64,000 nucleotides of DNA, taken from Comamonadaceae bacterium (GTDB lineage Bacteria > Pseudomonadota > Gammaproteobacteria > Burkholderiales > Burkholderiaceae_C). The translations under genes were made by a program, and so were the position numbers. The stretch is taken from assembly GCA_947453965.1 (NCBI GenBank), contig CANGIQ010000008.1, positions 1 to 64,000 of the forward strand, given 5' to 3'. Every line of letters begins with the position of its first letter. The stretch's first letter is position 1. Below, one piece after another: positions 8,590 through 63,667 of the stretch. A model generated the notes under the pieces. That model saw nothing but the letters and a program-made list of their open reading frames with translations, did no database searches and was not told the origin of the DNA.

Positions 8590-8615
8590 TTGACGGACGG
8601 GCAACCGGGCAGCGT

Positions 8616-46740: not shown

Positions 46741-47243
46741 ATGACCGACTCCGACAAGCCCTCCATCGCCTGGTACGCCGTACACACCAAGCCCCGCCAA
46801 GAAGCCCGTGCGCTCGAAAACCTGCTGAACCAAGGCTTTGAGTGCTTTTTGCCGATGATGGAGGTTGAAAAAGTTCGCCGCCAAAAGGTCAGCCGCGTCA
46901 CCGAGCCCATGTTCAGCCGCTATTTGTTTATCCGGCTCAACGACGTCAACCACAATTGGTCGCCCATCCGCTCCACCCTGGGCGTGAGCAAATTGGTCAG
47001 CTTTGGCCATGTGCCTGCCAAAGTGCCCGCCGAATTCATTCACTTCTTGCGTGACGCACCGCCCGCTGCAGTGGCCCGCTTGTTTGTGCCTGGCGACAAT
47101 GTGCGCATTGCTTACGGCCCCTTGGCTGGGCTAGAAGGCGTGTACCAAGCGCACGATGGCGAAACCCGCGCCTTTGTGTTGGTCGAGCTCTTAGGCCAGC
47201 CCCAAAAACTCAAACTCGCCATCGAGTCGCTCGCTGCCAACAC

Positions 47244-47247
<4 letters not shown>
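46741..47247 (+). CDS. RfaH/NusG-like transcription antiterminator
   Basis: A 168-aa NusG-superfamily elongation factor. The NGN domain (about 9-105) reads AWYAVHTKPRQEARALENLLNQGFECFLPMM and MFSRYLFIRLND; the KOW-containing C-terminal domain starts near FVPGDNVRIAYGPLAGLEGVYQ. Housekeeping NusG normally sits beside secE and is longer, so this is a specialised paralog. RfaH (162 aa) is the closest characterised type. An exact ops element lies 6.2 kb downstream on the same strand. No clear Shine-Dalgarno precedes the ATG. Confidence 0.88.
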
Positions 47248-48020
<773 letters not shown>

Positions 48021-48025
48021 CTACA

Positions 48026-50716
48026 ATGAGAAATACTTTGAAAGTAACCATGGTTTTTGATCGAATAAAAACTCTCAGCCGCGCGTGTGTGCTTGTTGTT
48101 GGCGTGTTCAGTTCGACGGCTTTGATCGCCCAGATACCGCAAGGCAGCCAAAGTCTTCAGTTGCCTCAGGGCATGCAAGGCGCTTTGGGTGGTATTTCGG
48201 GAGGCGCAAGTATCGGCGGAGGCCTTGGCAACTTGAGCCTGGGTTCGGCGGGTGCCAACGCCATTCGTTCATCTGACCCCTTGCCGATCAACCCCAATTT
48301 CAATATGCAAGGGATGTTTCAACCCTTGGAACCTCTCAAAGCCAACGATTTCCAAAAGTTTGTGCTCGAAACCACGGGCTACAAATTGCCGCTGTACGGC
48401 TCTGTGTTTTTCGAAAACCTGCAGTTCATTCAACGCAACCAGTTATCCAACCAGCCAGGGCCCAGCCCCTTTGCGCCCACCGAGAGTTCACCTGTCAGCG
48501 CCGACTATCCGCTGGGTCCAGGTGACCAGATTCTGATTCGAGGCTGGGGCTCGCTGGAAGTGGACGTGCGTGCTGTGGTGGACCGCAATGGCATGGTCAA
48601 TATCCCCAAGGTGGGTACCGTCTCGCTCGCTGGCGTGAAATTTGGTCAAGCAGAAGGCGTGATCAAAAATGCCGTCGGCAAGTACTACAAAGACTTCCAG
48701 CTCAGCGTGACCATCGGTCAATTGCGCACCATCACCGTCTATGTGGTGGGCCAAGCGCGTCGCCCAGGCAGTTATTCTTTGAGCAGTGTGTCCACCTTGT
48801 CGACGGGGTTGTTTGCCACAGGCGGCCCTAACGCCACGGGCTCTATGCGTCGTGTGCAGCTCAAGCGTGGCGGGCAAATCGTCACCGAATTTGACCTGTA
48901 TGCGTTCTTGGCGCAAGGCAACAGCGCGGGTGACGTCAAACTCGTGGATGGTGACATCATCGTGATTCCCCAGGCCGTGGGCCATGTTGCCTTGGTGGGC
49001 AAAGTCAACAACCCCGCCGTGTACGAAATGAAGTCCAGCAAAGAAACGCTGGAAGACTTGTTGGCTGTTGCCGGCGGCCTGCCTGTGGTGGCCGATCCGC
49101 GCCGTGCTGTGCTGGAGCGTCTCACCCCCAAAGACGCGCAACCTCGTCGCGTGCAAGACGTGGCGCTTGAAGGTGCGGGCCTCAAAACCGAGCTGCTCAA
49201 TGGCGACCTCATCACCGTACTGGCCATCACCCCAGAACTGTCCAACGCCGTCACCTTGCGCGGTAACGTGGCACAACCCTCGCGCATGGCTTGGCGCGAA
49301 GGCATGCGCGTGCGAGACCTCATTCCCAACAAAGAAGTGCTGATCAGCCGGGACTCGATTCGCCGTCAAAACGAAGTGCTGTTCGATGCCAACCAACGCG
49401 AGCGTGCCCTGCGTGAGCGAGAGCTCATGTCAGAAGACTTGTTGGACGACCCAGTGCTCGATTCACGTATTGACCAAAAGGGCATGCGTGAAGCGAGGCT
49501 GAAAGAAATGGCTGCAGCCGATAGGCCTAACCCAAGTGCAACGACCCCAGGAGCCCTTGTTAGCAACAAGCCCAGCGAGAAGTCGTATGACGGGCGAACC
49601 GCCATCATTGATAAAGAGTCTAGAACCATCGAGGGTTACCGCGAGTCGCGCCAAGCGCGCATGTTCTCTAACCAAGCGCCTATCAAGGTCAACGAGCGCA
49701 ACACCGTGCCTTCGGTGGCTGAGTCTGTGGGTAACCTGTACGACGAAATCAATTGGGACTATGCGGTGATTGAGCGGGTCGACCGCCAAAACCTCAATGT
49801 CAGCTTGGTGCCTTTTAATTTGGCGCGTGTTCTGAACGACGCCAAAGACCCCGACAACCAATTGCTGCAAGCGGGCGATGTAGTCACCGTTTTTTCTGTC
49901 AACGACATGCGTGTGCCCATTGCAAAACGCCGCATCATGGTGCGTGTTGAAGGCGAAGTGGCACAACCTGGCATCTATCAAGTCAAGTCGGGAGAAAACT
50001 TGGCAGATGTGTTGCAACGTGCAGGTGGCTTGACGCACGATGCGTATTTGTTTGGCTCAGCCTTTTACCGTGAAGACGTGCGCAAAAGCCAGGTTGAGAA
50101 CCTTGATAAGTTGGTTCGCCGTTTAGAAACCGAATCCAGTGCACAACTCGCCCAGGCCAGCCAAAGCTTGGGCGCTAGCTCTGACGCAGCCATCTCGCAG
50201 GCGCGTATTCTTGCGGCGCAGCAAGCTCAGCGCCAAGCGCTGGAGCGTGTGCGCAGCTTAAAACCCGAGGGGCGCATTGCTTTGGGGTTGGACCCACAGT
50301 TGTACAACTACATCAACAACTTGCCTGAAATCCGTTTGCAAAACGGCGACCGGTTGATCATTCCTACCCGGCCAGACTTTGTGTATGTCTATGGTGCAGT
50401 GAATACCGAATCTGCCTTGATCTTCAAAACCGGCAAAACCGTGCAAGATTATTTGAACGCCGCAGGCGTTGGCTCAGGGGCTGACCGCGATTCGGTGATT
50501 TTGATTCGCGCTGACGGCTCTGCTTTAACCAGCAATGGCGGCTGGTTTGGCTCGATCAACAGTGCCAAGGTCATGCCTGGCGATTCCATCGTCATGCCCG
50601 ATAAGTTGGACCGCGAGGCGGTGTGGAGCGCTGTGATTCGCAATGCCAAAGACATCACCCAAATCTTCTACCAATTGGGCTTAGGCGCAGCCGGTTTGAA
50701 GGCCTTGGGCTATTAA
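48026..50716 (+). CDS. Large SLBB-domain polysaccharide export protein (Wza-like)
   Basis: An 896-aa outer-membrane/periplasmic export protein with a signal peptide (ACVLVVGVFSSTALIAQ). The Poly_export domain lies around residues 155-240 (DYPLGPGDQILIRGWGSLEVDV), followed by several SLBB repeats (ITVYVVGQARRPGSYSL; HVALVGKVNNPAVYEM; RIMVRVEGEVAQPGIYQV; FVYVYGAVNTESALIF). It is more than twice the length of E. coli Wza (about 380 aa) and has a charged linker near residues 430-540. ATG 48050 with an upstream GAAAG is an alternative start. It forms the exit route for the polymer. Confidence 0.88.
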   Translation: MRNTLKVTMVFDRIKTLSRACVLVVGVFSSTALIAQIPQGSQSLQLPQGMQGALGGISGGASIGGGLGNLSLGSAGANAIRSSDPLPINPNFNMQGMFQPLEPLKANDFQKFVLETTGYKLPLYGSVFFENLQFIQRNQLSNQPGPSPFAPTESSPVSADYPLGPGDQILIRGWGSLEVDVRAVVDRNGMVNIPKVGTVSLAGVKFGQAEGVIKNAVGKYYKDFQLSVTIGQLRTITVYVVGQARRPGSYSLSSVSTLSTGLFATGGPNATGSMRRVQLKRGGQIVTEFDLYAFLAQGNSAGDVKLVDGDIIVIPQAVGHVALVGKVNNPAVYEMKSSKETLEDLLAVAGGLPVVADPRRAVLERLTPKDAQPRRVQDVALEGAGLKTELLNGDLITVLAITPELSNAVTLRGNVAQPSRMAWREGMRVRDLIPNKEVLISRDSIRRQNEVLFDANQRERALRERELMSEDLLDDPVLDSRIDQKGMREARLKEMAAADRPNPSATTPGALVSNKPSEKSYDGRTAIIDKESRTIEGYRESRQARMFSNQAPIKVNERNTVPSVAESVGNLYDEINWDYAVIERVDRQNLNVSLVPFNLARVLNDAKDPDNQLLQAGDVVTVFSVNDMRVPIAKRRIMVRVEGEVAQPGIYQVKSGENLADVLQRAGGLTHDAYLFGSAFYREDVRKSQVENLDKLVRRLETESSAQLAQASQSLGASSDAAISQARILAAQQAQRQALERVRSLKPEGRIALGLDPQLYNYINNLPEIRLQNGDRLIIPTRPDFVYVYGAVNTESALIFKTGKTVQDYLNAAGVGSGADRDSVILIRADGSALTSNGGWFGSINSAKVMPGDSIVMPDKLDREAVWSAVIRNAKDITQIFYQLGLGAAGLKALGY

Positions 50717-50725
50717 GGATTGCAG

Positions 50726-51913
50726 ATGTCTGACTTGAACCAAACTGCAACCGTGGCTGCTGAGGCCGAAGAAGATGAAATCAGCCTGATCGACTTGGCC
50801 ATTACCCTGGGGGAAGAAAAGAAAACCCTGTTTGCGGTGCCCGCCATTACCACCACACTGGCGATTGTGGTGAGCTTATTAATGACGCCCATCTTCACTG
50901 CTAAAACTGTGATGATGCCGCCTCAGCAGCAGCAAAGTGGTGCGGCTTCTGCTCTGGCGAGTTTAGGCGCGCTTGCTGGACTAGCTGGTGGGGCTGCAGG
51001 TATCAAGAGCCCGGATGAGATGTATATCGCCTTTATGCAAGGCGAGAGCTTGCAAAATGCGGTGATCAAGAAGCTTGATCTTCAAGCGCGTTACGAGAAG
51101 AAAACGCTTTTCGAAACCCGCGAGCATTTGAAGCAAACCGTCAAAATCGCTTCAGACAAAAAGTCAGGCCTTATTACCATTGAGGCCGACGACAAAGACC
51201 CAGAGTTTGCAGCCAAGCTGGCCAACGCACATGTAGACGAGCTCCGTAGTCTGATGGGTCGTTTGGCGGTCACAGATGCCCAGCAGCGCCGACTGTTCTT
51301 TGAGCAAGCGATTGCCAGAAACCAAACCGAGTTGGCAGAGGCGGAAGCAAATTTCCGCACTGCCAAAGAAAAGTCGGGCATGCAAGTTACAGCGGTTATT
51401 GCAGAAACGGCAGTCAGAGCTGGCGCTGAAATGCGAGCTCAGATAGCCGCCAAAGAAGTGCAACTAGCTGCCATGAGCAACTTTGCCACTCCACAAAACC
51501 CAGACGTTCAACGCTTGGCTGGGGAATTGTCAGCTTTGCGCTCACAGTTAAAAAAGTTAGAGCAAGGCTCAGGTGGAGACGAAAAATCTTCACCCATGCA
51601 GCAATTGGCCGTTAAGTCTTACCGTGACATCAAAGCCCGTGAAGCCATGGCGGGAGTGCTGGTCGCGCAGTATGAGTCTGCCCGTGTGGATGAGTCTAAA
51701 GAAGGACCGCTGATCCAGCAGGTTGATGTGGCCGTTGCGCCAGAACGTAAATCTAAACCTAAGCGCGCCATTATTGTCATTGTCTCGGCATTTGCTGGCT
51801 TGTTCTTGGGCGTTCTAATTGCTTTTGTGCGACGTGCATTACGCAAAGCCTCAGAAGATCCGCAAAGCGCTTCGCAAATGGCAATGCTCAGAGCTGCTTG
51901 GCGTTGGAAGTAA
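50726..51913 (+). CDS. Wzz-type polysaccharide chain-length/co-polymerase protein
   Basis: A 395-aa inner-membrane protein with two transmembrane segments (about 37-58 and 352-376) flanking a large periplasmic coiled-coil region. The N-terminal EDEISLIDLAITLGEEKKTLFAVP matches the Wzz domain, and the proline-containing VAVAPERKSKPKRAIIV precedes TM2. There is no C-terminal tyrosine-kinase domain, so it is PCP-1/PCP-2b-like. AAGGAT precedes the ATG. It controls polymer length with the SLBB protein. Confidence 0.88.
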   Translation: MSDLNQTATVAAEAEEDEISLIDLAITLGEEKKTLFAVPAITTTLAIVVSLLMTPIFTAKTVMMPPQQQQSGAASALASLGALAGLAGGAAGIKSPDEMYIAFMQGESLQNAVIKKLDLQARYEKKTLFETREHLKQTVKIASDKKSGLITIEADDKDPEFAAKLANAHVDELRSLMGRLAVTDAQQRRLFFEQAIARNQTELAEAEANFRTAKEKSGMQVTAVIAETAVRAGAEMRAQIAAKEVQLAAMSNFATPQNPDVQRLAGELSALRSQLKKLEQGSGGDEKSSPMQQLAVKSYRDIKAREAMAGVLVAQYESARVDESKEGPLIQQVDVAVAPERKSKPKRAIIVIVSAFAGLFLGVLIAFVRRALRKASEDPQSASQMAMLRAAWRWK

Positions 51914-51919
51914 TCTCTT

Positions 51920-53032
51920 ATGGAACTGGCTATCAACTGGACTGTGTTGTTGCTCAGCTTATTGGTAGCAGTTACCGTGACTGGTTTTTTTGCGCTCTCC
52001 AAAGTTCAGTTTGGTTCAGACAAAGACGCAGGCGTTCAAAAGTTTCACACCAAGCCTACATCACGCTTAGGCGGGGTGGGAATATCCATGGGGCTTGCCA
52101 GTGGTGTGTGGTTTTCTCAAACCTATTACCCTCATGACGCTTTACTTGGCGTGTGGCTGCTGGTGGCGTCTTTGCCTGTATTTTTAGGGGGCTTGGTCGA
52201 AGACCTCACTCACAAAGTGACCCCTCGCATGCGATTGTGTTTGGCCTGTTTATCTTCTAGTGCTGTGTACGCTCTTTTTCATTTGGGCGTGACACGCACA
52301 GATATTGCGGTTTTAGATTGGTTGTTGACTTTTCCTGGCGTAGCCTTGGTATTGACTCTTCTTGTCGTTGCGGGGTTTATCAACTCCGTCAACATCATCG
52401 ATGGTTTTCATGGCTTAGCCTCCGGCACGGTCATCATCATGCTGCTGGGGCTAGCCAGCTTGGCCATGCGTGTGGATGATGGCGTGGTGTTCAGATTGAG
52501 CCTGATTACCGCCGTAGCCACACTTGGTTTTGCCATTTGGAACTGGCCCTTTGGCAAGATATTTTTGGGCGATGGCGGCGCGTATTTACTGGGCCTGTGG
52601 GTGGTAGAGCTGGGGCTGTTGCTGCCCCACAGAAGCCAAGCCATTTCGCCTATGGCACCCGTGTTGGTCGGTGTGTACCCGCTGCTAGAAACGCTTTACA
52701 GCATGTATAGGCGCAAATTTGTTCGTGCGCATCCCATTAATCATCCGGATGCTTTGCATTTGCATACCTTGATTTACCGACGTTTAATTTTGAATCCCGC
52801 ACTAGATATATCCGACCAAAGTAAAAACCGCGCAAACGCGCAAGTCGCTTTGATTGTTTGGGGATTTGCTGCCACGCCCGCTGTGCTGGCTGTGTATTTT
52901 TATGAACAAACCAATATGCTGTTGGCGTTTATTGGTCTGCTTGCTTTGGCTTATGTTTATTTTTACGGATTGTTAATCAAGTTTAAGGCACCTGTATTTT
53001 TAATGTCTGAAAGTCGCAGAGCAGGACGCTAG
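51920..53032 (+). CDS. WecA-like undecaprenyl-phosphate glycosyl-1-phosphate transferase
   Basis: A 370-aa polyprenyl-phosphate sugar-phosphate transferase (glycosyltransferase family 4, PNPT). About ten hydrophobic segments are present. Catalytic motifs include the DED-like HTKPTSRLGGVGI, NSVNIIDGFHGLASG, FLGDGGAYLLG and a C-terminal HPDALHLHTL histidine motif. It starts the repeat unit by moving a HexNAc-1-phosphate onto undecaprenyl phosphate; the sugar is probably a GlcNAc-type derivative. Last gene before the operon break. Confidence 0.88.
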   Translation: MELAINWTVLLLSLLVAVTVTGFFALSKVQFGSDKDAGVQKFHTKPTSRLGGVGISMGLASGVWFSQTYYPHDALLGVWLLVASLPVFLGGLVEDLTHKVTPRMRLCLACLSSSAVYALFHLGVTRTDIAVLDWLLTFPGVALVLTLLVVAGFINSVNIIDGFHGLASGTVIIMLLGLASLAMRVDDGVVFRLSLITAVATLGFAIWNWPFGKIFLGDGGAYLLGLWVVELGLLLPHRSQAISPMAPVLVGVYPLLETLYSMYRRKFVRAHPINHPDALHLHTLIYRRLILNPALDISDQSKNRANAQVALIVWGFAATPAVLAVYFYEQTNMLLAFIGLLALAYVYFYGLLIKFKAPVFLMSESRRAGR

Positions 53033-53053
53033 TTAAAAAAGTAGATCTGATAA

Positions 53054-53312
53054 CAGGAGTTAGCGGGCGAGGTGGAAATTAGCCACGTACAGGAGATGCA
53101 TCAAGATGCCGAAAGCTCCTACGGATCCGACCTGCCCAACCTGGTGGCGGTCAAGGGCTACCCACAAGCTGTTGAACAATGAGGCCGTCAAAAGCTACAT
53201 CCAACGCCACGAACCTGAGATCTTGGGGCAGTTCGAACTGGTGGTGAACACCGTCAGCATGGAGGAGGCTGTCCAGCAGCAGGTCAATACCACCTCAGCA
53301 GAAGTCAGCTAA
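53054..53312 (+). pseudogene. Decayed RepB/ParB-like C-terminal fragment
   Basis: Two frames read as one protein if a small indel near 53162 is corrected. The first gives ...HQDAESSYGSDLPNLVAVKGY, the second KLLNNEAVKSYIQRHEPEI and onward to a stop at 53312. The pattern YG...NLV.(A/V)(R/K)GY..KLL.N..V..Y...H.PEIL..F resembles the C-terminus of RepB/ParB-type plasmid partition proteins, from memory. No start, N-terminal domain or partner gene is present. It sits in a 401-base gap between the EPS blocks and suggests a past insertion or recombination. The rest of the gap is AT-rich leader. Confidence 0.5.
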
Positions 53313-53384
53313 GCGTCAAAACATTAATGGTTTCGATAAATATTTTTTTGTTGTCATAGAAAATTCATCTACTAGAAGTTAGAA

Positions 53385-53402
53385 TTGTTCGAATTCGTAC
53401 AA
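53385..53402. promoter_or_regulatory. Near-perfect palindrome upstream of the MarR-type EPS regulator
   Basis: TTGTTCGAATTCGTACAA pairs 8 of 9 base pairs about its GAATTC centre. It lies about 80 bases before the regulator ATG and 53 before the ops element, in AT-rich DNA suited to a promoter. Size and symmetry fit a MarR dimer site, so autoregulation is likely but not shown. Confidence 0.55.
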
Positions 53403-53454
53403 ACGTTCCCTTGCAGAACAGCTCCTAACGCGCTTGCCGATCGTGACACGGCAC

Positions 53455-53466
53455 GGCGGTAGCGTG
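53455..53466 (+). promoter_or_regulatory. ops element (RfaH recruitment/pause site)
   Basis: GGCGGTAGCGTG matches the E. coli ops consensus GGCGGTAG-NN-TG at every fixed position. It lies on the coding strand 15 bases before the regulator ATG, in the 5' leader of a long glycan operon, the exact setting of ops elements in enterobacteria. An RfaH-like gene is at 46741. The following start lacks a clear Shine-Dalgarno, also typical of RfaH-dependent operons. Confidence 0.8.
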
Positions 53467-53481
53467 GACAAAATCCCTCAC

Positions 53482-53853
53482 ATGACCAGCCGCCGATCCC
53501 AGCTTCAGGAAGACACCTACTTTCGAATCTTACGCATGCTGCAAGACAACCCCGATATGACCCAGCGCGAGATTGCAGAAAAGCTGGGTGTCAGCACCAG
53601 CGGGCTTAACTACTGCCTAAAAGCGTTGATCGACAAGGGTTTGGTCAAGGCGCAGAACTTCAGCCTAAGCAAGAATAAGTTTGGGTACATCTACGTGCTT
53701 ACGCCGCAGGGTTTGGCCGAAAAGGCGCAGCTGACAGGGCGCTTTCTCAGCCGAAAGTTGCAAGAGTACGAAGCTCTTCGGGTTGAGATTGATGCATTAA
53801 GTGCCGAAGCTGATGCCAATAATTTCAAAGAATATAAGGGGGGTACCCTTTGA
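53482..53853 (+). CDS. MarR-type EPS-associated transcriptional regulator
   Basis: A 123-aa winged-helix protein with the EPS-associated MarR pattern: [48 protein letters not shown], then [33 protein letters not shown]. Such small regulators sit at the head of exopolysaccharide loci in many proteobacteria. ATG 53482 gives the family N-terminus; an upstream TTG at 53434 would place the ops element inside the gene. Its stop overlaps the ugd start (TTGA). Confidence 0.88.
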
Positions 53854-55052
53854 AAATCGCTATCGCTGGCACCGGATATGTCGGATTATCTAACGCCATA
53901 CTTCTCGCTCAGCACCATCAAGTGGTGGCGCTAGACATCGCGTCCGCCAAGGTCGACCAGATTAATAGCAAACAGTCTCCAATAGAAGACCCAGACGTTG
54001 AGTACTTTCTGCAGCATAAGCCCCTCAATCTGCACGCCACCCTAGACAAACACGAAGCCTACCAAGGTGCAGACTACGTAATTATTGCCACCCCTACCGA
54101 CTATGACCCCACGACCAACTACTTCAATACCAAAAGCATCGAAGCGGTCATTAATGATGTAATGGCCATTAATCCCCAGGCGGTCATGGTAATCAAGAGC
54201 ACCGTACCGGTGGGTTACACCGCCAAAACTTCCCAAACCCTGGGCACGCGCAATCTACTGTTTAGTCCCGAGTTTTTGCGTGAAGGTAAGGCTCTTCATG
54301 ACAACCTGCACCCCAGCCGGATTGTGGTTGGCGAGCAGAGCGAGCGCGCCAAAGCCTTTGCCAACTTGCTCGAACAAGGCGCCATAAAGCAAAAGGTGCC
54401 TGTGCTGCTCACTCAAAGTACCGAGGCAGAGGCTATCAAGCTCTTTGCCAACACATATTTGGCCATGCGCGTGGCCTACTTTAATGAGCTAGATACTTAC
54501 GCAGCTACCCATGGCCTAGACACCCGGCAGATCATTGACGGGGTGTGCCTAGACTCCCGTATTGGGAGTCACTATAACAACCCCAGCTTTGGTTATGGTG
54601 GCTACTGCTTGCCTAAAGACACCAAGCAGCTTTTGGCCAACTACCAAGACGTACCTCAAACGCTCATCCAAGCCATCGTCAGCGCCAACAGCACCCGCAA
54701 AGACTTTATCGCCCAAGAGGTGGTTCAGCGTGCTGAGACTCAAGTTCTACAGAGCGGCCATAACTATGCGAAGCCTGTTGTTGGCATTTATCGCCTTATT
54801 ATGAAAGCCGGTAGCGATAACTATCGTGCGAGCGCTATACAAGGGGTGATGAAGCGAATTAAGGCCAAAGGCATCGAGGTTATTGTTTACGAACCTGTTT
54901 TAAATCAGGCTGATTTTTACCATTCCAAGGTGGTTAACGACCTTACTGCATTTAAGCAACAGGCCAGCGTCATCATCGCTAATAGGCTAACAGAGGCACT
55001 TAGCGATGTAGTAGGTAAGGTCTATACGCGTGATCTTTTCGGTAACGATTAA
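53850..55052 (+). CDS. ugd: UDP-glucose 6-dehydrogenase
   Basis: A 400-aa NAD enzyme oxidising UDP-glucose to UDP-glucuronate. NAD motif is [11 protein letters not shown] at the N-terminus; the catalytic segment [12 protein letters not shown] has Cys253; [13 protein letters not shown] and KSTVPVGYT are conserved. The sequence is of the short E. coli Ugd type (388 aa), not the WbpA UDP-GlcNAc dehydrogenase type. TTG start overlaps the regulator stop. It supplies glucuronate for the polymer, the substrate class of the C5-epimerase downstream. Confidence 0.92.
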
Positions 55053-55067: not shown

Positions 55068-56129
55068 ATGCTGAAATTTGCATTGGTTGGTTGTGGTCGT
55101 ATTGCCAAGCGTCACTCGGAATTGTTGGGGCTTGGCCAGATTGAGGGTGCGCAGTTAGTAGCGGCGTGTGATTTGTTGGAAGAAAAAGCCAGAAAAATCG
55201 GCGAGCAGTTTTCTGTGCCTTATTTCACAGACATGCATCAGATGATGCAAAGTGAAAATATTGATGTTGTCGTTGTGCTAACGGAGAGCGGAAATCACGC
55301 TAAGAACGTGGTTGATCTAGCGCAATATGGCAAACACATCGTAGTAGAAAAGCCAATGGCTTTAACGCTCGACGATGCCGACGCGATGATTCAAGCCTGT
55401 GACAAGACTGGCGCGAAGCTGTTTGTTGTCAAGCAAAATCGATTTAATGTTCCAGTTGTGAAGTTGCGTGAAGCGCTCGAGCAAGGGCGATTTGGAAAGT
55501 TGGTTCTGGGTACAGTCCGCGTACGCTGGTGTCGTCCCCAAGATTATTACGATCAAGCGCCATGGCGTGGAACTTGGGCAATGGATGGTGGAGTTTTGAC
55601 AAACCAAGCAAGTCATCATGTCGATATGCTCGAATGGATGATGGGCGACGTAGAAAGTGTATTCGCGAGGAGCGCAACGGCACTGGCGAATATTGAAGCA
55701 GAAGACACAGCGGTGGTCACACTCAAGTTCCGTAATGGTGCCCTCGGTGTGATTGAGGCCACAACGGCAACGCGCCCTAAGGACCTGGAGGGATCGATAT
55801 CAGTGTTGGGCGAAGGTGGCACGGTGGAAATTGCTGGATTTGCTGTCAACAAGATGAAGACTTGGAATTTTGTAGAGGCTAAGCCCGGCGACGAGGACGT
55901 TATGGAAAAATACTCCGTCAATCCTCCAAGCGTATACGGTTTTGGGCATCAAGCTTACTATGAATATGTCGTTGACTGTATCAGCAACAACGGTCCGCAT
56001 CTTGTAGATGGCCTTGTCGGAAGAAAGAGTCTTGAATTAATTAATGCGATATATGAATCCGTCGAGACGGGTAAAGAAGTCTACTTGCGGTTCCGTCCAA
56101 AGCACTGCAAGCTCGGGGGCTCATTTTGA
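55068..56129 (+). CDS. Gfo/Idh/MocA oxidoreductase (WbpB/GnnA-like)
   Basis: A 353-aa NAD(P)-dependent sugar-nucleotide oxidoreductase. The Rossmann start is FALVGCGRIAKRHSELL; the conserved VVEKPMALTLDDADAMI and DGGVLTNQASHHVDMLEWMMGD are typical of the WbpB/WlbA/GnnA group that oxidises C3 of UDP-HexNAc sugars. It precedes an acetyltransferase (TTGA overlap) and an aminotransferase, so together they would make a 3-acetamido sugar. Whether the substrate is UDP-GlcNAc or UDP-GlcNAcA cannot be told. Confidence 0.85.
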   Translation: MLKFALVGCGRIAKRHSELLGLGQIEGAQLVAACDLLEEKARKIGEQFSVPYFTDMHQMMQSENIDVVVVLTESGNHAKNVVDLAQYGKHIVVEKPMALTLDDADAMIQACDKTGAKLFVVKQNRFNVPVVKLREALEQGRFGKLVLGTVRVRWCRPQDYYDQAPWRGTWAMDGGVLTNQASHHVDMLEWMMGDVESVFARSATALANIEAEDTAVVTLKFRNGALGVIEATTATRPKDLEGSISVLGEGGTVEIAGFAVNKMKTWNFVEAKPGDEDVMEKYSVNPPSVYGFGHQAYYEYVVDCISNNGPHLVDGLVGRKSLELINAIYESVETGKEVYLRFRPKHCKLGGSF

Positions 56130-56596
56130 ACCAACCCAAAATCAAAGAGGCCCGGATTGTCAATGTCAAGTTTGGCGATGGCGTGACTGTTGTCAACCCA
56201 GTCAACCTTTATGGGTGTGCGATTGGCAGTAACGTCTTTGTCGGACCTTTTGTTGAAATTCAAAAAGATGTGAATATCGGCGAACGCACCAAAATTCAGT
56301 CTCATTCCTTCATTTGTGAGTTGGTTGACATAGGAAAAGATTGCTTCGTCGGTCATGGTGTGATGTTTATTAATGACACCTTCGTTAAGGGCGGACCAGC
56401 AAGAGGAGATAAGTCGCTTTGGATGCAAACTAAAATCGGCGATAACGTTTCAATTGGGAGTAATGCCACCATTCTCCCAGTTACTGTATGCGCCAACGTT
56501 GTTATTGGTGCCGGCTCCGTAGTGACTAAAGACATAAAGGCCCCAGGAGTCTATGTCGGTAACCCAGCCAAGTTCATCAAGAAACTATCTGATTGA
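56126..56596 (+). CDS. Left-handed beta-helix N-acetyltransferase (WbpD-like)
   Basis: A 156-aa hexapeptide-repeat acetyltransferase. Repeats such as GCAIGSNVFVGPFVEIQKDVNIGERTKIQSHSF and VSIGSNATILPVTVCANVVIGAGSVVTKDI are clear, with a terminal GNPAKFIKKL. It would N-acetylate the 3-amino group made by the next gene's aminotransferase. Slightly shorter than WbpD (about 190 aa). The start is TTG 56126, overlapping the previous stop. Confidence 0.87.
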   Translation: MNQPKIKEARIVNVKFGDGVTVVNPVNLYGCAIGSNVFVGPFVEIQKDVNIGERTKIQSHSFICELVDIGKDCFVGHGVMFINDTFVKGGPARGDKSLWMQTKIGDNVSIGSNATILPVTVCANVVIGAGSVVTKDIKAPGVYVGNPAKFIKKLSD

Positions 56597-56607
56597 AAAT
56601 CTAAACC

Positions 56608-57723
56608 ATGAATACTCAAATGCCTTTTGTTGACCTTCACGCTCAATATCAAACTATAAAAGAAGAAATTGACTTCGTAATCAGTGATGTCATTCAAAAA
56701 TCATTATTTGTTCGCGGACCGTACGTTGATAAGTTCGAGCAGATGTTTGCCGAAGCAATGGAACGCAAGCACTGTGTTTCCTGTGCTAATGGGACGGACT
56801 CCCTCTATATTGCGATGGTTGCTTTAGGCGTCAATCCTGGTGACGAAGTGCTAGCGCCCGCGCATTCATGGATATCCACTACAGAAACCATAAGCCAAGC
56901 TGGGGGAAAAGTGGTTTTTTGCGATACGGACAAAGACACATTCACTATTGACCCCAAGAGCATTGAGGAAAAGATAACATCAAACACGGTAGGTATTATT
57001 CCGGTGCACCTTTATGGACAGCCGGCGGACATGGATGCAATTATGGCTATTGCCAAGAAGCATAATCTTTGGGTGTTGGAGGATTGCGCTCAAGCACATC
57101 TTGCCCGGTACAGAGGCAAGCTGGTGGGCACATTTGGTGATGTAGCTTCCTTTTCATTTTACCCCGGGAAAAACTTAGGTGCTATGGGTGACGCAGGTGC
57201 TGTTATAACCAATGACCAAGCACTGGCCGAAAAGATGGCAATGTTTGCTCGTCATGGCGGCTTGCAAAAGGGTAGTCATGAGATCGAAGGTATCAATAGC
57301 AGATTAGACGGTATACAAGCTGCCATCCTTTCGGTCAAATTGCCCCACTTGCTCAAATGGACCGAGTTGCGTCAGGCAAAGGCGTTGCGTTATTCAGAAT
57401 GCCTGTCTGAAATAAAGGGCATCAAGACGCCCTACGTTGCGGCGGAGCGCGAGCATGTTTGGCATTTGTACGTGATACAACATGAACGGCGTGATGCGCT
57501 CAAAGATTTTCTCGCTCACAGAGGCATTGCGGCGGTGATCAATTACCCCGTGGCATTGCCGTTTTTACCTGCCTATAGACGCTATGGACACCAAGTCGAA
57601 GAATTCCCCAACGCGCATTTCGCCCAATCGCGAATCTTATCGCTCCCGATTTATCCTGAAATGAGCGACGAACATGTTCAACATGTCGCGGCTGTGGTTG
57701 GACAGTTTGCGTATTCGCATTAA
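56608..57723 (+). CDS. DegT/DnrJ/EryC1/StrS aminotransferase (WbpE-like)
   Basis: A 371-aa PLP enzyme that transaminates a 3-keto sugar nucleotide. The PLP lysine is Lys188 in SFSFYPGKNLGAMGDAGA; LEDCAQAH and INSRLDGIQAAIL are family signatures. It completes an oxidation-amination-acetylation set giving UDP-GlcNAc(3NAc) or its uronic acid. The order oxidoreductase-acetyltransferase-aminotransferase matches wbpB-wbpD-wbpE. Confidence 0.9.
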   Translation: MNTQMPFVDLHAQYQTIKEEIDFVISDVIQKSLFVRGPYVDKFEQMFAEAMERKHCVSCANGTDSLYIAMVALGVNPGDEVLAPAHSWISTTETISQAGGKVVFCDTDKDTFTIDPKSIEEKITSNTVGIIPVHLYGQPADMDAIMAIAKKHNLWVLEDCAQAHLARYRGKLVGTFGDVASFSFYPGKNLGAMGDAGAVITNDQALAEKMAMFARHGGLQKGSHEIEGINSRLDGIQAAILSVKLPHLLKWTELRQAKALRYSECLSEIKGIKTPYVAAEREHVWHLYVIQHERRDALKDFLAHRGIAAVINYPVALPFLPAYRRYGHQVEEFPNAHFAQSRILSLPIYPEMSDEHVQHVAAVVGQFAYSH

Positions 57724-57800
57724 GCAGCTAGCAACGACCCGTGACGATCAAAAAACAGTTTAATAAAAATCAAGATCAAACGCAGATTTAACATAAGCTT

Positions 57801-58472
57801 ATGGATAAAAATCTCAATTTTGAATATATTTCAAATTCCGAAGAGTCAAGAAAATATTATTCTAAAGTGATCGATGAGTTGAATATAAATAGCGGGACAT
57901 TGATAGATTTTGGTTGTGGTATGGGACAATTATCAATCTTGGCAAGCAAGAGGGCGACGAATTGCAAGATTTTGGGAATCGATCTCAATCCACCGCAAAC
58001 TGTAGAAATTTCGGGGAAATTGGAGTTTGTTCAGGGAGGATTAGAAGATTTGGATGCTATCCTTTGTAAAGAAAATGTCAGCTACTTAATTTTTTCAAAC
58101 TGCATTCAATACTTAAATATAAATGAAGTAAATAGAATTGTTGCGCGGCACATGTCAATCCAAAAGGTTTTTATATCTACAGCCTTTAGCAAATTTTATT
58201 GGATTCGCTTCATTCAAGCAATAAAAAAAATGCGCCTGCGAGAAATTATTCGCTATTTCTTGTTGTTATTAAAAAGTAGTCTTGTTCCGTATTTTTTATA
58301 TGCAAATTCCGAAAGAGAGAAGCCCCCAAGTTTTCGTCAAATTAATGCGGGGATGGAAGCTGCCGGGCTGAGCCTTGTTAATGCATTTTATGCTGATATT
58401 TGGGGTGATAAATATCCTTGGATTGGGAACCGTAATATTTTGAACTGTTATTTGTTTACAAGAAAGAATTAA
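57801..58472 (+). CDS. Class I SAM-dependent methyltransferase
   Basis: A 223-aa protein with SAM motif I SGTLIDFGCGMGQLSILA (about residues 34-51) and motif II ILGIDLNPPQ; the C-terminal half has no recognisable signature. Base composition is strongly AT-rich compared with the upstream genes, a sign of separate acquisition. It may methylate a sugar of the polymer; target unknown. A 209-base AT-rich gap without an open gene follows. Confidence 0.78.
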   Translation: MDKNLNFEYISNSEESRKYYSKVIDELNINSGTLIDFGCGMGQLSILASKRATNCKILGIDLNPPQTVEISGKLEFVQGGLEDLDAILCKENVSYLIFSNCIQYLNINEVNRIVARHMSIQKVFISTAFSKFYWIRFIQAIKKMRLREIIRYFLLLLKSSLVPYFLYANSEREKPPSFRQINAGMEAAGLSLVNAFYADIWGDKYPWIGNRNILNCYLFTRKN

Positions 58473-58681
58473 ACGCTTTCAACAAATTTCTGAATGCGAA
58501 GGCTATGTTAGATTGCATGATAAATAGTTAATGATGAGAGCGATTGGTGCTTACACAAGGGTTTGTGGATAAAGCCATCAATGTTACGTCCGTGTTAAAT
58601 GGGTGGTAATGTGTCCGACTTAATAAAGAAAACTCTAAATTGAATGCTCTATTAATTTAAATATATGAAACAGGAGAAATT

Positions 58682-59569
58682 ATGAGACGAACGCTTCTAA
58701 AACGAATCGTTTACAATGACCCACTTGAAAACTTCATTAAAGGAATTGTTCGGCATTACCTAAATAAAAAATCCAATCAACTCATTAAAAAGCGAGGCTA
58801 TCCGATTGCTGTTTTTGGCAATGATTGGATTGGCAGTAGCATTTTTATGAGTGGAATTTATGAAGAGCATTTAATTGAAGATTTGTTCTGCGTTGTAAAT
58901 GAAGTTGGTTTTAATTTATCTAAAGCAACAATTGTTGATATTGGTGCAAATATTGGGAATCACTCAATTCAATTTTCTCGAAAATTTAAAAAAGTGTTTT
59001 CATTTGAGCCAAATCCGAGGGTGTATGAAATTCTTGTTTCTAACACAAAGCGGATTTCCAATATAGAAACATATAATCTTGGAATCGGTCGCAATAGTGC
59101 TGTACTTAAGCTAAAAGAGAATTGGATGAACATGGGCGGTAGTAGCGCGACGATGAATGTCGTTTCAGATTCAATTGTTGATATTGAAATTAGTACCCTT
59201 GACAGTATGGTTAATTTGTTGGGTAAAGTTGATGTCATCAAGATTGATGTAGAGGGTATGGAGCTCGATGTTCTGCTTGGTGCGACCGAAATAATATCTA
59301 AGAATCACCCTATAATTTGCCTTGAGCAAGATATAAGTGAATTTAAGAATGAATTTAACGAGACTGCATCACTCGATTTTCTTAGATCACTAGGTTACAG
59401 ATTTTATGTCCAAAAGACCTATGAACAGTTGCCTTGGTTGGTCCTTAGATTAAAGAATATTTTCGAAATTGTCTTCGGCTGTAGATCACAAAGGGAAATT
59501 TTGGAATTTGATAGGCTTCCTAAAAAAACCTATTCGATGATTTTTGCAATACATTGCACTAGCTTATGA
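58682..59569 (+). CDS. FkbM-family methyltransferase
   Basis: A 295-aa methyltransferase of the FkbM type, common in glycan clusters for O-methylation. Motifs are TIVDIGANIGNHSIQFS (motif I), FSFEPNPRVYEIL and VDVIKIDVEGMELDVLLGA. It is AT-rich and starts after a strong AGGAGA site, with its own 209-base leader, so it may have an internal promoter. The sugar position methylated is unknown. Confidence 0.83.
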   Translation: MRRTLLKRIVYNDPLENFIKGIVRHYLNKKSNQLIKKRGYPIAVFGNDWIGSSIFMSGIYEEHLIEDLFCVVNEVGFNLSKATIVDIGANIGNHSIQFSRKFKKVFSFEPNPRVYEILVSNTKRISNIETYNLGIGRNSAVLKLKENWMNMGGSSATMNVVSDSIVDIEISTLDSMVNLLGKVDVIKIDVEGMELDVLLGATEIISKNHPIICLEQDISEFKNEFNETASLDFLRSLGYRFYVQKTYEQLPWLVLRLKNIFEIVFGCRSQREILEFDRLPKKTYSMIFAIHCTSL

Positions 59570-59611
59570 ATTAAAAATTTTATTTTTAATAAAAATACGC
59601 ACAGGATAATA

Positions 59612-60583
59612 ATGTTACACGTTTCAATCGTTTGGCACGTTGAGCCGGGATTGCGCTTTGAGCCTAATCTGATTGTCGATGATGAGAATATTTCTTGTCT
59701 TTTTGATCTCATCAAGGCGACGCCAGAAATTCGGCATACTTTAATGATTCAGGCAGATGACTCAGTTCTAAGCGCGACCGGAAAACGTGCGTATCTTTTT
59801 GAGCGGTTTAGTTCAGAGTTGCGCGAATTGACGGCAGACGGGCATGAAATCGGCTGGCATTTTCACCCTATTGAAATCCATGAGGGGCGATGGCAACAAA
59901 GTTTGGATCAGCTCCGAATTTGTGCTGCTGCTGAACAGGCTTTTAATGACATCAATTTTGCTTTTCCGATTGCGGTATGCAGCACGGGTTGGTGCTATGG
60001 TAGCAATGAGCTGACTGCGACCTATCGTAGATTGGGCTTGCGGGTCGACTGTTCGGCCCTGCCAGGACTCTTTAACCCAGGAGTGGATGTTGCTGATCGG
60101 TATGGAAATATTGGCCGTGTAAACCATCATGATTGGCGTCAATCACCATTGCGTCCGTTCAAACCTGGCTACGAGAACTATCAGTTAGAGTCCCCCGCTC
60201 AAGATGGTTCGCTTGTGCAATTCCCGGCTTTGACGACGCGAGACAATTTGGTTTCGCTCAATGAGAGCGTGCATTGGTACTCACCAGCCTATTGTGGCGT
60301 CAAACGTGCTCTGACTGAGGGGCGTGATGTTTATCTACAGTTGTATTCACATTCGTTCAACATGAGAAGGCCGGATCAGCGGATGCATTTTTATCGTCAT
60401 ATCAAGCTCCTAAATACTTTAGCAGCTGAAACTGGGAGCGCACTCAATTTTGGCACGGTAAGTTCGGTTATTAGCGCTTGGTCGCGTACTACAAATTGTA
60501 TCGACTTATTATCTTACGTTGAGCAAGAAGCTCTATGGGTAAAATTGGGTAAACGCATAATGCACAAGGCTGGATTCATCTAA
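59612..60583 (+). CDS. Polysaccharide deacetylase-like (NodB-superfamily) protein
   Basis: A 323-aa protein with a deacetylase-like barrel pattern: HVSIVWHVEP at the N-terminus, MIQADDS near 45-51, and the histidine motif ADGHEIGWHFHP (75-86). A late PAYCGV...YLQLYSHSFNMRRP segment resembles the family His region. The classic TFDD motif is absent, so it is divergent and might be a related hydrolase. It shares a TAATG stop/start with the C5-epimerase gene, indicating a coupled pair. Confidence 0.65.
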   Translation: MLHVSIVWHVEPGLRFEPNLIVDDENISCLFDLIKATPEIRHTLMIQADDSVLSATGKRAYLFERFSSELRELTADGHEIGWHFHPIEIHEGRWQQSLDQLRICAAAEQAFNDINFAFPIAVCSTGWCYGSNELTATYRRLGLRVDCSALPGLFNPGVDVADRYGNIGRVNHHDWRQSPLRPFKPGYENYQLESPAQDGSLVQFPALTTRDNLVSLNESVHWYSPAYCGVKRALTEGRDVYLQLYSHSFNMRRPDQRMHFYRHIKLLNTLAAETGSALNFGTVSSVISAWSRTTNCIDLLSYVEQEALWVKLGKRIMHKAGFI

Positions 60584-61557
60584 TGCAACGTAGTTATCCA
60601 GTCGACATCTCAGATTTTTATGACTCAGCTAACCAAGGGTATTGCGAATTTGACAATAAACATGTGCCGCTGATTGATTACGATCGCGTATTTGGACTAT
60701 GGGGGCAAATTTCTGGGAGTCGTTTTGGGAAGCAATACAATACGGTTGCGATTGCGCAATATGGATTGGCTGCCATCGCAAAATTGAATCAGGTGACATG
60801 CGACGAGGATAACGATCGATTACGTGAGCAAATCTATTCTTGCGCGGATTGGTTGTGCTCTAATTATGCAGAGTCAGTTTATGGTATTTACTGGCCATAT
60901 AAATTTGACTTCCCTCCCTATCGCCTAGAAAGTGGATTTACTTCGTGCATGTCACAGGGGTTTGCACTTTCGCTGCTTTTGAGAGCCCATCAGATTTTTG
61001 GCGAAGAACGATTTCTTGAGGTGGCTATTCGAGCGCGTGATTTCTTCAAAAATAATGCAGTTGGTGACGATCCGGTCAATTTTGTACGTAAGTTCGGACA
61101 TCTGGTATGGTTTGAAGAATATCCGTCCCACCTACCGAGCCGTGTCCTGAATGGGTATCTTTTTGCTGTCATCAGCCTGCATGATTCCTTGTCGTATTTA
61201 GAAGACACGGTGATTGCCGGAATCGTTGCAGAGGCCGTTAAAAAACTCCCGTTGGTGATAAAAATGTACGACTTAGGGTATTGGAGTAAATATGATTTCC
61301 TGCCTGGACGAACCGCAACCTTGACCTATCATCGAATACACCTTCTTCAATTACAGTATTTTTGTGCCCAATTTGAAAGTCACGGCTTAGCACCGCTCTT
61401 GGAGCGATGGTCGCGTGGCGCCGCTTCTCGATATTACCGGTTTCTGTACCATCTGAAATCTACAAATCCATACGTGAAATTCGGCTCTTTGGTCCACGCG
61501 TTAAAGCTGCGCTACAAAAAGCACCTTAGATCCGAATCTATTCACTTGCATATTTAA
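60583..61557 (+). CDS. D-glucuronyl C5-epimerase family protein
   Basis: A 324-aa alpha/alpha-barrel-type protein. The catalytic-domain pattern of glucuronyl C5-epimerases is clear: WPYKFDFPPYRLESGFTSCMSQGFALSLLLRA (104-135), WFEEYPS...VLNGYLFAVISLHD (176-201), MYDLGYWSKYDF (228-239) and YHRIHLLQL (249-257). These enzymes invert C5 of glucuronate in a polymer to give iduronate. It lacks the N-terminal extension of animal enzymes. Ugd in the same operon provides the precursor. No signal peptide, so action on cytosolic lipid-linked chains is likely, unless exported otherwise. Confidence 0.8.
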   Translation: MQRSYPVDISDFYDSANQGYCEFDNKHVPLIDYDRVFGLWGQISGSRFGKQYNTVAIAQYGLAAIAKLNQVTCDEDNDRLREQIYSCADWLCSNYAESVYGIYWPYKFDFPPYRLESGFTSCMSQGFALSLLLRAHQIFGEERFLEVAIRARDFFKNNAVGDDPVNFVRKFGHLVWFEEYPSHLPSRVLNGYLFAVISLHDSLSYLEDTVIAGIVAEAVKKLPLVIKMYDLGYWSKYDFLPGRTATLTYHRIHLLQLQYFCAQFESHGLAPLLERWSRGAASRYYRFLYHLKSTNPYVKFGSLVHALKLRYKKHLRSESIHLHI

Positions 61558-62615
61558 TGATAAGACTTTTTTTCCCAGTAAATCTCGAAACAAACAAGGG
61601 CGATTCGGTGCATGCGCTTAAGTTGCTGAAATACTTCCGATTAAAGGAAGCGAACTACCTGGTCGTCTCTTATGACTCGCAGCGCGGTCGAATCAATAAG
61701 TATTTTTATTTTTTAATCAAAAGCATTCTTGGGGCATTCGCCCCTAAAACTGATATACTTTACGTTCGATATTTTCCGCTTTGCTCGTTAAGTATTCTTC
61801 TTGCGAAACTCCGTAAACTTCCGTGTTTTGTGGAATTGAATGCGATCATTTCTGAAGAATTAATAGATCGCAAAATCTCTAATCCGCTTTATCAGCTTGT
61901 GACTTACATCGACGAGCAGATCATTTCCCGTTATGCTAGTGGAGCTGTCTGCGTCACGGAAGGCATCCGGAATTTTTATTTTGGTGACCGGGATCCTAGG
62001 GCGATCGTTCTAGGTAATGGCGTTGATATTGATGAGTTCAACGCGATACAAACTGTCACCAATTATGATGGCTTGATCGAATTCGACTTTGGCTTTGTAG
62101 GCTCCTTATCTCCATGGCAGGACCTTGAAACGCTGATTGCTGCCGTGGCGCTCTTGCGCGATCGCTATCAAGTTCATGCGCGTACTCTCATTGTTGGTCA
62201 TGGAGTAAATTTTGCGGCCATAGTAAAGCTGGTCAGCAAATTTGGCCTATCAAATCAAGTTCATTTCTTGGGCGAGGTCCCCAAGGCTGATGTTCCTCAA
62301 GTGATGCAGAAATTTAAAATTGGCGTCGTGCCATTAAAAGGAAGTCGCCTCAAGAAAACTGGCACGTCAGCTGTCAAAATCCTCGAATATATCGCTGCCG
62401 GGCGGCAAGTCGTTTGTACCCATGTCGCGATGGCGGAAAATTTGACTACTCTGGTTGATTTCTTCTACGAACCTGAGAGTGTTAAGGATTTAGCCAAACA
62501 ACTGTATTCAGCATATCTGCAGCGCGATCAAGTTATCAGACTCAAAGATATTTCTAGCTTCACATGGGAAGCGCATGTGACCAAATTAATGAAATTCATT
62601 AATTCAAAACGATGA
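61557..62615 (+). CDS. Glycosyltransferase family 4 protein
   Basis: A 352-aa GT-B glycosyltransferase. The C-terminal nucleotide-sugar domain reads FGFVGSLSPWQDLETLIAAVALL and TGTSAVKILEYIAAGRQVVCT, with VLGNGVDIDEF typical of the GT4 interdomain region. The N-terminal acceptor domain starts IRLFFPVNLETNKGDSVHALKLL. Overlaps the epimerase stop by TAATG. Donor and linkage are unknown. Confidence 0.88.
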   Translation: MIRLFFPVNLETNKGDSVHALKLLKYFRLKEANYLVVSYDSQRGRINKYFYFLIKSILGAFAPKTDILYVRYFPLCSLSILLAKLRKLPCFVELNAIISEELIDRKISNPLYQLVTYIDEQIISRYASGAVCVTEGIRNFYFGDRDPRAIVLGNGVDIDEFNAIQTVTNYDGLIEFDFGFVGSLSPWQDLETLIAAVALLRDRYQVHARTLIVGHGVNFAAIVKLVSKFGLSNQVHFLGEVPKADVPQVMQKFKIGVVPLKGSRLKKTGTSAVKILEYIAAGRQVVCTHVAMAENLTTLVDFFYEPESVKDLAKQLYSAYLQRDQVIRLKDISSFTWEAHVTKLMKFINSKR

Positions 62616-63667
62616 AATATTGCCTGGTAGGAGATCGGACATCAATACACTTGAAGAAGTGGGAGTCCTATTTACACGAGCAAGGGCATGAAACTTACTA
62701 TGTAGATACTTCAGGCGGCCAACAAGGGGGATCTGAGAGTAATATTATAAGTATCAAATTCGATCGTATGGGGAAGCTTTTGATTTTCTTTCAGATGTTG
62801 CGGGTTGCTTGGTTTGTATTGAAAAATCAGATCAAAGTGGTCGATGTTCATTATGTGGGCTTAAATTCTGTTGTGTCTTTTTTAACGCTGGGGGCTATGA
62901 GGGTAGCAACTTGCCATGGTTCGGATATTCACACGGACCCATATAGATCAAGGCTGTTGCGCTGGGCCACCTGGATAGAGCTTCTTCGAGCCAATCTGAT
63001 TTTTGTTAGCGGGCGTCCCTTGAGCCAAGAGCTAAAAAAAATCTATCCAACAATCGACGAAAAAAAGATTATTCCTTATTCACCGGGAGTGAATTTAGAC
63101 GTCTTCCGAACGTGCTCTAGAGGAACCAAAAAATATGATTTCATTTCAACACGTCTGATGCAGGAGAAGTACGCTATTCTGCAAATGATTGAAGGGCTTA
63201 TTAAGCTTAAGCAAATAGGTTTTGTTTTTAAAGTTGCGTTAGTTGTAACTAAGCCTAATGCGACCTATCTTGAATTGATCAAGACTAAAATCAGTCAAGC
63301 ATTGTCTGACGAGGTCGATTTCTTTCCTGAATTGCCACAAGAAAAAATTGCGACACTTTACAATGCATCCGCATTCAGCCTACATTTTCCTTATGGTGAG
63401 AGTATTGGATTAAGCGTAATCGAGAGCACCCTGTGCGACTGTTTTCCAATTACGCTTGGACATGCAGCATACATGGATTATATGGATGCAAACGATATGA
63501 TCATTGCTAGATCAGTTAGTGCCGCAGACTTGATGGAGTCCATGAAGACCGCGTTGCAGGGGGATTTTCGTGTGTCGCAGTCCCTAAAGCAGCGCCTCGC
63601 AGAACTACATTCCTCGCCTACTAATTATATGAGAAATCTTGCGTTGATCAGCGCTGCGAGAAAATAG
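62612..63667 (+). CDS. Glycosyltransferase family 4-like protein
   Basis: A 351-aa GT-B protein. The N-terminus MKYCLVGDRTSIHLKKWESYLHEQGHETYYVDTS and the middle VVDVHYVGLNSVVSFLTLGAMRVATCHGSDIHTDP follow the GT4 acceptor domain; IIPYSPGVNLDVF and SLHFPYGESIGLSVIESTLCDCFPI form the donor site, where Glu in ESIGLSVIES is the usual phosphate/sugar contact. It overlaps the previous gene by ATGA. Donor unknown. Confidence 0.87.
   Translation: MKYCLVGDRTSIHLKKWESYLHEQGHETYYVDTSGGQQGGSESNIISIKFDRMGKLLIFFQMLRVAWFVLKNQIKVVDVHYVGLNSVVSFLTLGAMRVATCHGSDIHTDPYRSRLLRWATWIELLRANLIFVSGRPLSQELKKIYPTIDEKKIIPYSPGVNLDVFRTCSRGTKKYDFISTRLMQEKYAILQMIEGLIKLKQIGFVFKVALVVTKPNATYLELIKTKISQALSDEVDFFPELPQEKIATLYNASAFSLHFPYGESIGLSVIESTLCDCFPITLGHAAYMDYMDANDMIIARSVSAADLMESMKTALQGDFRVSQSLKQRLAELHSSPTNYMRNLALISAARK

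Follow-up and report, generated by a model that had tools for sequence, protein, structure and literature searches.

The best-described relative of the locus presented here is the RfaH/ops system of E. coli, in which an RfaH-family protein is recruited at a 12-nt ops element in the leaders of long glycan operons such as wza and rfb. According to the available part of PMC5995543, residues K10, H20, R23 and R73 of E. coli RfaH make the direct ops contacts, an alanine at K10, H20 or R73 strongly reduces recruitment in vitro, and the E. coli ops pause is a backtracking (class II) pause. The corresponding leader RNA, JUMPstart (RF01707), is listed for gammaproteobacteria in the available text of PMC2864571. 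Other NusG paralogs, UpxY of Bacteroides, LoaP and TaA, likewise serve one or a few long operons, and the part of PMC7819879 available to us places the B. fragilis leader upstream of upxY. Among RfaH proteins, cluster CL6 of Wang et al. (2020; PMC7593976) has uppS among its neighbors; as far as its available text goes, this article does not name a recruitment site for CL6, and its scheme has sequence-specific DNA contacts arising last. Finally, the accessible part of a preprint (PMC13015549) links a β-barrel C-terminal domain (CTD) to proteins acting near their own gene independently of ops, and describes predicted monomorphic homologs, with genes close to long operons, that are active independently of ops. 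No report of ops with RfaH in betaproteobacteria appeared among the literature matches listed, a search in which subscription papers were mostly outside the scope.

The window analyzed here is a stretch of 64,000 nucleotides from a Comamonadaceae bacterium. Its relevant features are as follows.

46741..47247, + strand: RfaH-like NusG paralog, 168 aa (TIGR01955, 162.1 bits for a cut-off of 144.5)
47244..48020, + strand: uppS, undecaprenyl diphosphate synthase (PF01255; TIGR00055, 287.9 bits for a cut-off of 109.55)
48026..50716, + strand: polysaccharide export protein of the Wza/EpsE type with SLBB repeats (PF02563, PF10531)
50720..51913, + strand: chain-length determinant, Wzz/GNVR (PF02706, PF13807)
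51920..53032, + strand: WecA-type sugar-phosphate transferase (PF00953)
53420..53481, + strand: whole leader element (covariance model R1, 71.7 bits)
53435..53439, + strand: 5' arm of the leader hairpin, TGCCG (stem TGCYG/CRGCA)
53449..53453, + strand: 3' arm of the leader hairpin, CGGCA (stem TGCYG/CRGCA), ending 1 nt before ops
53455..53466, + strand: ops element GGCGGTAGCGTG, exact match, associated with RfaH-like genes
53482..53853, + strand: MarR_EPS, first gene after ops (TIGR04176, 148.9 bits for a cut-off of 88)
53850..55052, + strand: NDP-sugar (UDP-glucose type) dehydrogenase, second gene of the ops operon (TIGR03026, 334.8 bits for a cut-off of 189.8)
55068..63667, + strand: further genes of the ops operon (Pfam searches)

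As in E. coli, a long glycan operon has an exact ops element on the non-template strand of its leader, and an RfaH-family protein and a hairpin ending 1 nt before ops complete the resemblance. The first-pass annotation had placed an exact RfaH recruitment site and an RfaH/NusG-like gene at these positions, about 6.2 kb apart, and all three statements hold, the distance being measured from the rfaH stop codon. In contrast to E. coli, rfaH belongs to the ops locus itself and lies upstream of ops, whereas in B. fragilis it is the leader that is upstream of upxY. The start of uppS overlaps the stop of rfaH, and the genes between rfaH and ops (uppS, the Wza-type exporter, the Wzz-type protein and the WecA-type transferase) are all on the + strand. 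This neighborhood recalls CL6, to which we liken the locus by its neighbors alone; the window locus has an ops. Behind the dehydrogenase gene, the operon encodes a Gfo/Idh oxidoreductase, a hexapeptide transferase, a DegT aminotransferase, a FkbM methyltransferase, a C5-epimerase C-terminal domain and two glycosyltransferases; two more of its genes match no Pfam family at E 1e-6. Behind ops, the run of genes on one strand, made mostly of glycan genes, extends to about 74.2 kb of the contig (~21 kb in total) and ends with yjbF/gfcB- and yjbH-type genes, followed by a gene on the opposite strand. As also proposed earlier, no good Shine-Dalgarno is visible by eye directly before the ATG at 53482. 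A search of the 700 nt before ops for a sigma-70 promoter gave one weak 9-of-12 match (0.8 expected) and no good promoter. At 53072-53312, past the WecA-type gene and ahead of the ops leader, two short pieces resemble by eye a disrupted open frame, and neither matches Pfam.

We propose, with a probability of roughly 85%, that this is a working ops in a JUMPstart-like leader, at which the locally encoded RfaH-like protein loads and carries RNA polymerase through the ~21-kb glycan operon. A polymerase heading to marR would pause at ops, and this pause may be reinforced by the small RNA hairpin adjacent to the upstream side of the hybrid. The RfaH-like protein would then load onto the paused polymerase, displacing NusG and with it Rho, and would help a ribosome to start on marR independently of a Shine-Dalgarno. 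By staying on the polymerase across the operon, it would act as an antiterminator. The position of the gene suggests that loading takes place on the same transcript, in cis.

The assignment of the protein to the RfaH family is clear, since its score against RfaH (TIGR01955, 162.1 bits) is far from that against NusG (44.4 bits). The protein also passes PRK09014 (129.9 bits, cut-off 124) and matches E. coli RfaH chains with a best E-value of 2.3e-23. By contrast, it remains under the cut-offs of UpxY (81.1 vs 100) and LoaP (58.2 vs 125).

The 12 letters of ops could in principle stand upstream of an exopolysaccharide gene by chance. The window contains no second exact copy, and sites with up to 2 mismatches are about as frequent as expected (7 vs 5.7), so that only the exact match is exceptional in the window. 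In the whole genome (2.95 Mb), however, the exact 12-mer is found four times, compared with once for the reversed pattern, and is thus not unique there by itself. Two of the three other copies lie within long open frames. The third (G000:C43:1410-1421) has no evident operon behind it; it is outside long open frames and, by eye, apparently faces a terminator hairpin. The earlier argument that a chance 12-mer is improbable therefore does not stand on the 12-mer alone, and holds through the position of the site and the comparison with relatives. We consider coincidence practically excluded by the position of ops and its association in relatives: as presented below, the site is associated with RfaH, keeps to one strand, often lies close to rfaH and follows an upstream sequence that is independently conserved at a constant spacing.

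We surveyed 399 genomes of the same order. MarR_EPS was above its cut-off in 55 of them, and 54 were retained after one whose match starts at a contig end was dropped. A strong RfaH-like match, defined as at least 95 bits from a break in the list, was present in 44 of the 399 genomes (26 above the curated cut-off). As anticipated by the first-pass annotation, which had suggested searching relatives that carry the antiterminator for ops upstream of such operons, an ops with at most one mismatch within 600 nt before MarR_EPS was found in 14 of the 19 genomes with an RfaH-like protein and in none of the 35 without (Fisher 3.6e-9). All 12 letters are intact in 11 of these leaders, and three have one mismatch. 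MarR_EPS itself was considered as the partner of ops and rejected: with none of the 35 RfaH-less MarR_EPS genomes carrying the site, it follows RfaH and not MarR. Conservation as coding sequence was likewise discarded, because in the 11 exact leaders the spacing between ops and the start of the MarR match covers every value modulo 3. The longer pattern GCANGGCGGTAGCGTG gave 24 occurrences in 23 genomes, 18 of which have an RfaH-like protein, that is 18 of the 44 genomes with such a protein vs 5 of the 355 without a strong match (3.6e-15). Its reversed control gave 13 occurrences, one of them in an RfaH-like genome.

The sequence ahead of ops leads to the same sites. A weight matrix built on the 28 nt preceding ops in 12 sites, ops itself being left out, found three further leaders (G134, G218 and G018) with a score gap to noise of 28.9 vs 12.0. 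All three have ops at the same spacing, two exactly and one with 1 mismatch. Two MarR_EPS leaders with GGCGGTAGCGTC (L105 and L107, in genomes G230 and G042) have a different upstream sequence; in both genomes the RfaH-like gene is on another contig.

The orientation of ops relative to rfaH is fixed. In a set of 127 distinct rfaH-like genes, none of which came solely from loci selected for ops, 27 (26 distinct loci) are followed on their own strand by an exact ops, and none has one on the opposite strand. This count of 27 is a lower bound, since for 51 of the 127 genes the sequence available downstream is shorter than 2 kb. One gene has ops upstream, and the site there follows a second rfaH fragment of the same locus. 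Sixteen sites lie 51-196 nt past the rfaH stop, when about 0.02 would be expected within 200 nt from the control rate. Similarly, a set of 80 named-genome loci, collected through their RfaH only, contains exact ops 11 times on the rfaH strand (10 loci) and never on the other (reversed control, 2 and 0), the fetched sequence of the remaining 70 loci having no exact ops. The rfaH-ops-operon layout is thus recurrent, the window being a long version of it (6.2 kb). In a Methylococcaceae locus (L189), exact ops occurs at 12031 and 14502, 1.5 and 4.0 kb after one rfaH.

The leader preceding ops is structured. Fifteen leaders, that of the window included, were used to build the covariance model R1; their hairpin has 9 nt in the loop and a 5-bp stem, TGCYG/CRGCA, separated from ops by 1 nt. 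In these 15 sequences, 98.7% of the stem cells are paired, vs a maximum of 54.7% when the stem is slid. Variation within the TGCYG group is mainly at one pair (C-G, U-G, U-A), and covariation of this stem was not above that of shuffles (63 of 500 as high). More generally, 29 of 33 exact leaders have a stem of at least 5 bp ending within 6 nt of ops, and the gap is exactly 1 nt in 20 of the 33 (1.3 expected). Sixteen of these 20 are of the TGCYG kind, related by descent and therefore not independent, and four are of a TTGGR/TCCAA kind. A second class of hairpins, with a gap of 6 nt and varied stem letters, is found in L040, L045, L060, L103 and L018 (1.2 expected). One fold of the window contained an outer helix in which CGCGCT pairs with the second (3') half of ops; it was rejected, as variation gave it no support.

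Over the 399 genomes, the 15 strong matches of R1 are its own training sequences, and seven weaker ones have E-values from 2.4e-5 to 0.0084. The genome of the window has a single R1 match. Fourteen of the 15 strong matches are in genomes with an RfaH-like protein; the exception, G063, has a complete leader element (L076, G063:C5:6525-6586) and is one of the five genomes that carry GCANGGCGGTAGCGTG and no strong RfaH-like match. R1 also added matches in seven of the 80 named loci, among them Methylobacter, a Methylococcaceae bacterium, Crenobacter and Craterilacuibacter; these eight matches all have E-values of 2.4e-6 or lower. The site of Craterilacuibacter sinensis (L200) is exact.

In E. coli, the leaders of rfb and wza are both matched by the Rfam JUMPstart family, whose stem likewise ends 1 nt before ops. 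JUMPstart and the leaders described here have in common a 5-bp stem, a loop of 8-9 nt, the 1-nt spacer and ops, and differ in the letters of the stem (cUGGu/gCCAg vs TGCYG/CRGCA). Given the common spacing and the different stem letters, we conclude that the architecture is shared with JUMPstart and most letters are not. Searches with RF01707 gave no match at 52900-53900 of the window up to E 5 and none in 19 relatives up to E 0.1. Extending them to 11 more loci, up to E 0.5, gave a single hit, in L153, whose 24.8 bits fall short of the 35-bit threshold. The ops pause occurs at the 11th base of the element. If the polymerase pauses there, 12 nt would separate the base of the stem from the RNA 3' end, as is known for hairpin-stabilized pauses.

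In an alignment with E. coli RfaH, residues K10, R16, Q24, E48, F56, T72 and I93 are conserved in the window protein, which differs from E. coli RfaH in having N20, N23, R70 (N70 in E. coli), L73 and Y130. The four direct ops contacts K10, H20, R23 and R73 thus read K, N, N and L, so that the full set is absent. At the autoinhibition positions, E48 and I93 are retained and F130 is a tyrosine. At E. coli RfaH positions 145-146, the protein has L-L, having lost the Rho-contact residues of NusG, which are I-F according to the available part of PMC7593976. The same holds for the group: none of the 27 proteins from the 26 ops-linked loci (L117 contributes two, one a fragment) has all four contacts. 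K10 is present in 25, H20 in three, R23 in eight and R73 in eight, while R70 and T72 are found in all 27 and Q24 in 26. At these positions, the 99 other RfaH-like proteins resemble these 27, and the residues therefore do not separate ops-linked from unlinked proteins.

An AlphaFold model computed with 28 relatives predicts a β-barrel CTD for the window protein (pLDDT 84.8). The same procedure applied to E. coli RfaH, with 28 enterobacterial RfaH, gave a helical CTD at low confidence (pLDDT 59.2). The CTD of the window protein may thus be β, unlike the helical one of E. coli RfaH, a contrast that is only suggestive because of the low confidence of the E. coli control. Compared with the PDB, the window model has a NusG model as its first match and, as the next two, recruited, open RfaH (8phk and 6c6s) over the full length with a TM of about 0.57; the alignment with autoinhibited RfaH is limited to about 100 columns.

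These properties bear on another explanation, in which ops is a pause site only, slowing the polymerase for another factor such as the housekeeping NusG, MarR_EPS or an RNA-binding protein, and is not read by the RfaH-like protein when it loads. The replaced H20, R23 and R73 and the predicted β-barrel CTD would fit, as would the ops-independent monomorphic homologs near long operons of the preprint (PMC13015549, available part). The window protein resembles these predicted monomorphic β-RfaH in lying beside a long envelope operon and in its predicted CTD, and differs in that they are described as ops-independent, whereas here ops is in the locus and is associated with the gene across genomes. 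The absence of ops before MarR_EPS in all 35 RfaH-less genomes and the intact 12 letters in 11 of 14 leaders argue against a mere pause site, and we regard this explanation as unlikely. Loading of the local RfaH-like protein at ops is the reading that we retain, and the system is best described as a variant RfaH-ops circuit, locally encoded, with one R1-found target in the genome, an altered leader sequence and an altered reading surface. The self-contained circuit suggested at the outset is in this respect supported by the association of ops with RfaH across genomes, and departs from the canonical one in that three of the four contact residues are replaced.

The site is thus a candidate recruitment site for a locally encoded RfaH-like group, found here mostly in metagenome-assembled genomes of Burkholderiales. 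Its members are natural proteins that seemingly rely on these same 12 letters although they lack the complete set of H20, R23 and R73, and the site stands behind a leader hairpin conserved at one spacing with different letters. Both bear on how RfaH reads ops and on the proposed order of RfaH evolution. One could speculate that ops and its hairpin leader predate, or are independent of, the canonical reading residues and autoinhibition of RfaH. A constitutively open β-CTD RfaH, loading in cis at an ops directly behind its own gene in these beta- and methanotroph gammaproteobacteria, would then represent the missing link from a cis-acting NusG duplicate to the trans-acting, fold-switching RfaH of E. 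coli. We hold this scenario to be possible but rather doubtful.

Conservation of ops in the closest relatives is partial. Three named loci, in metagenome-assembled genomes titled Burkholderiales or Comamonadaceae, encode an RfaH 89-91% identical to that of the window; two of the three contigs end within 0.9 kb past rfaH. The closest judgeable one (L132, 91% identity) has the same layout: rfaH is followed by uppS and two long frames, and ops immediately precedes marR. In its region 8350-9095, the MarR_EPS frame has 89 codons and runs into glycosyltransferase-like sequence, and the dehydrogenase gene of the window is absent from the fetched contig. The leader and the marR start are preserved, what follows them is unlike the window, and the cluster is a mosaic. 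Such a mosaic, the apparent disrupted frame just upstream of the window leader and the element of G063 in a genome lacking a strong RfaH-like match are what would be expected if the leader were the relic of a transferred glycan cluster, unread by the resident RfaH-like protein. However, L132 keeps rfaH, ops and the marR start together despite the replaced sequence behind them, and we judge a relic quite improbable compared with a leader that the local RfaH-like protein still uses. The expectation that ops is conserved at this position in close relatives is consequently borne out by L132, but not by the wider group: 23 of the 80 named loci have rfaH beside uppS, and within the fetched sequence an exact ops was found in L132 only. 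Thirteen of the others have at least 6.5 kb of downstream sequence. In these loci, the site may be further off or elsewhere, or may have been lost or changed. An ops site adjacent to uppS was observed in L139, where it is exact, and, with the first letter changed to A, in L135 and L137 (Limnohabitans sp. Jir61; 1 mismatch).
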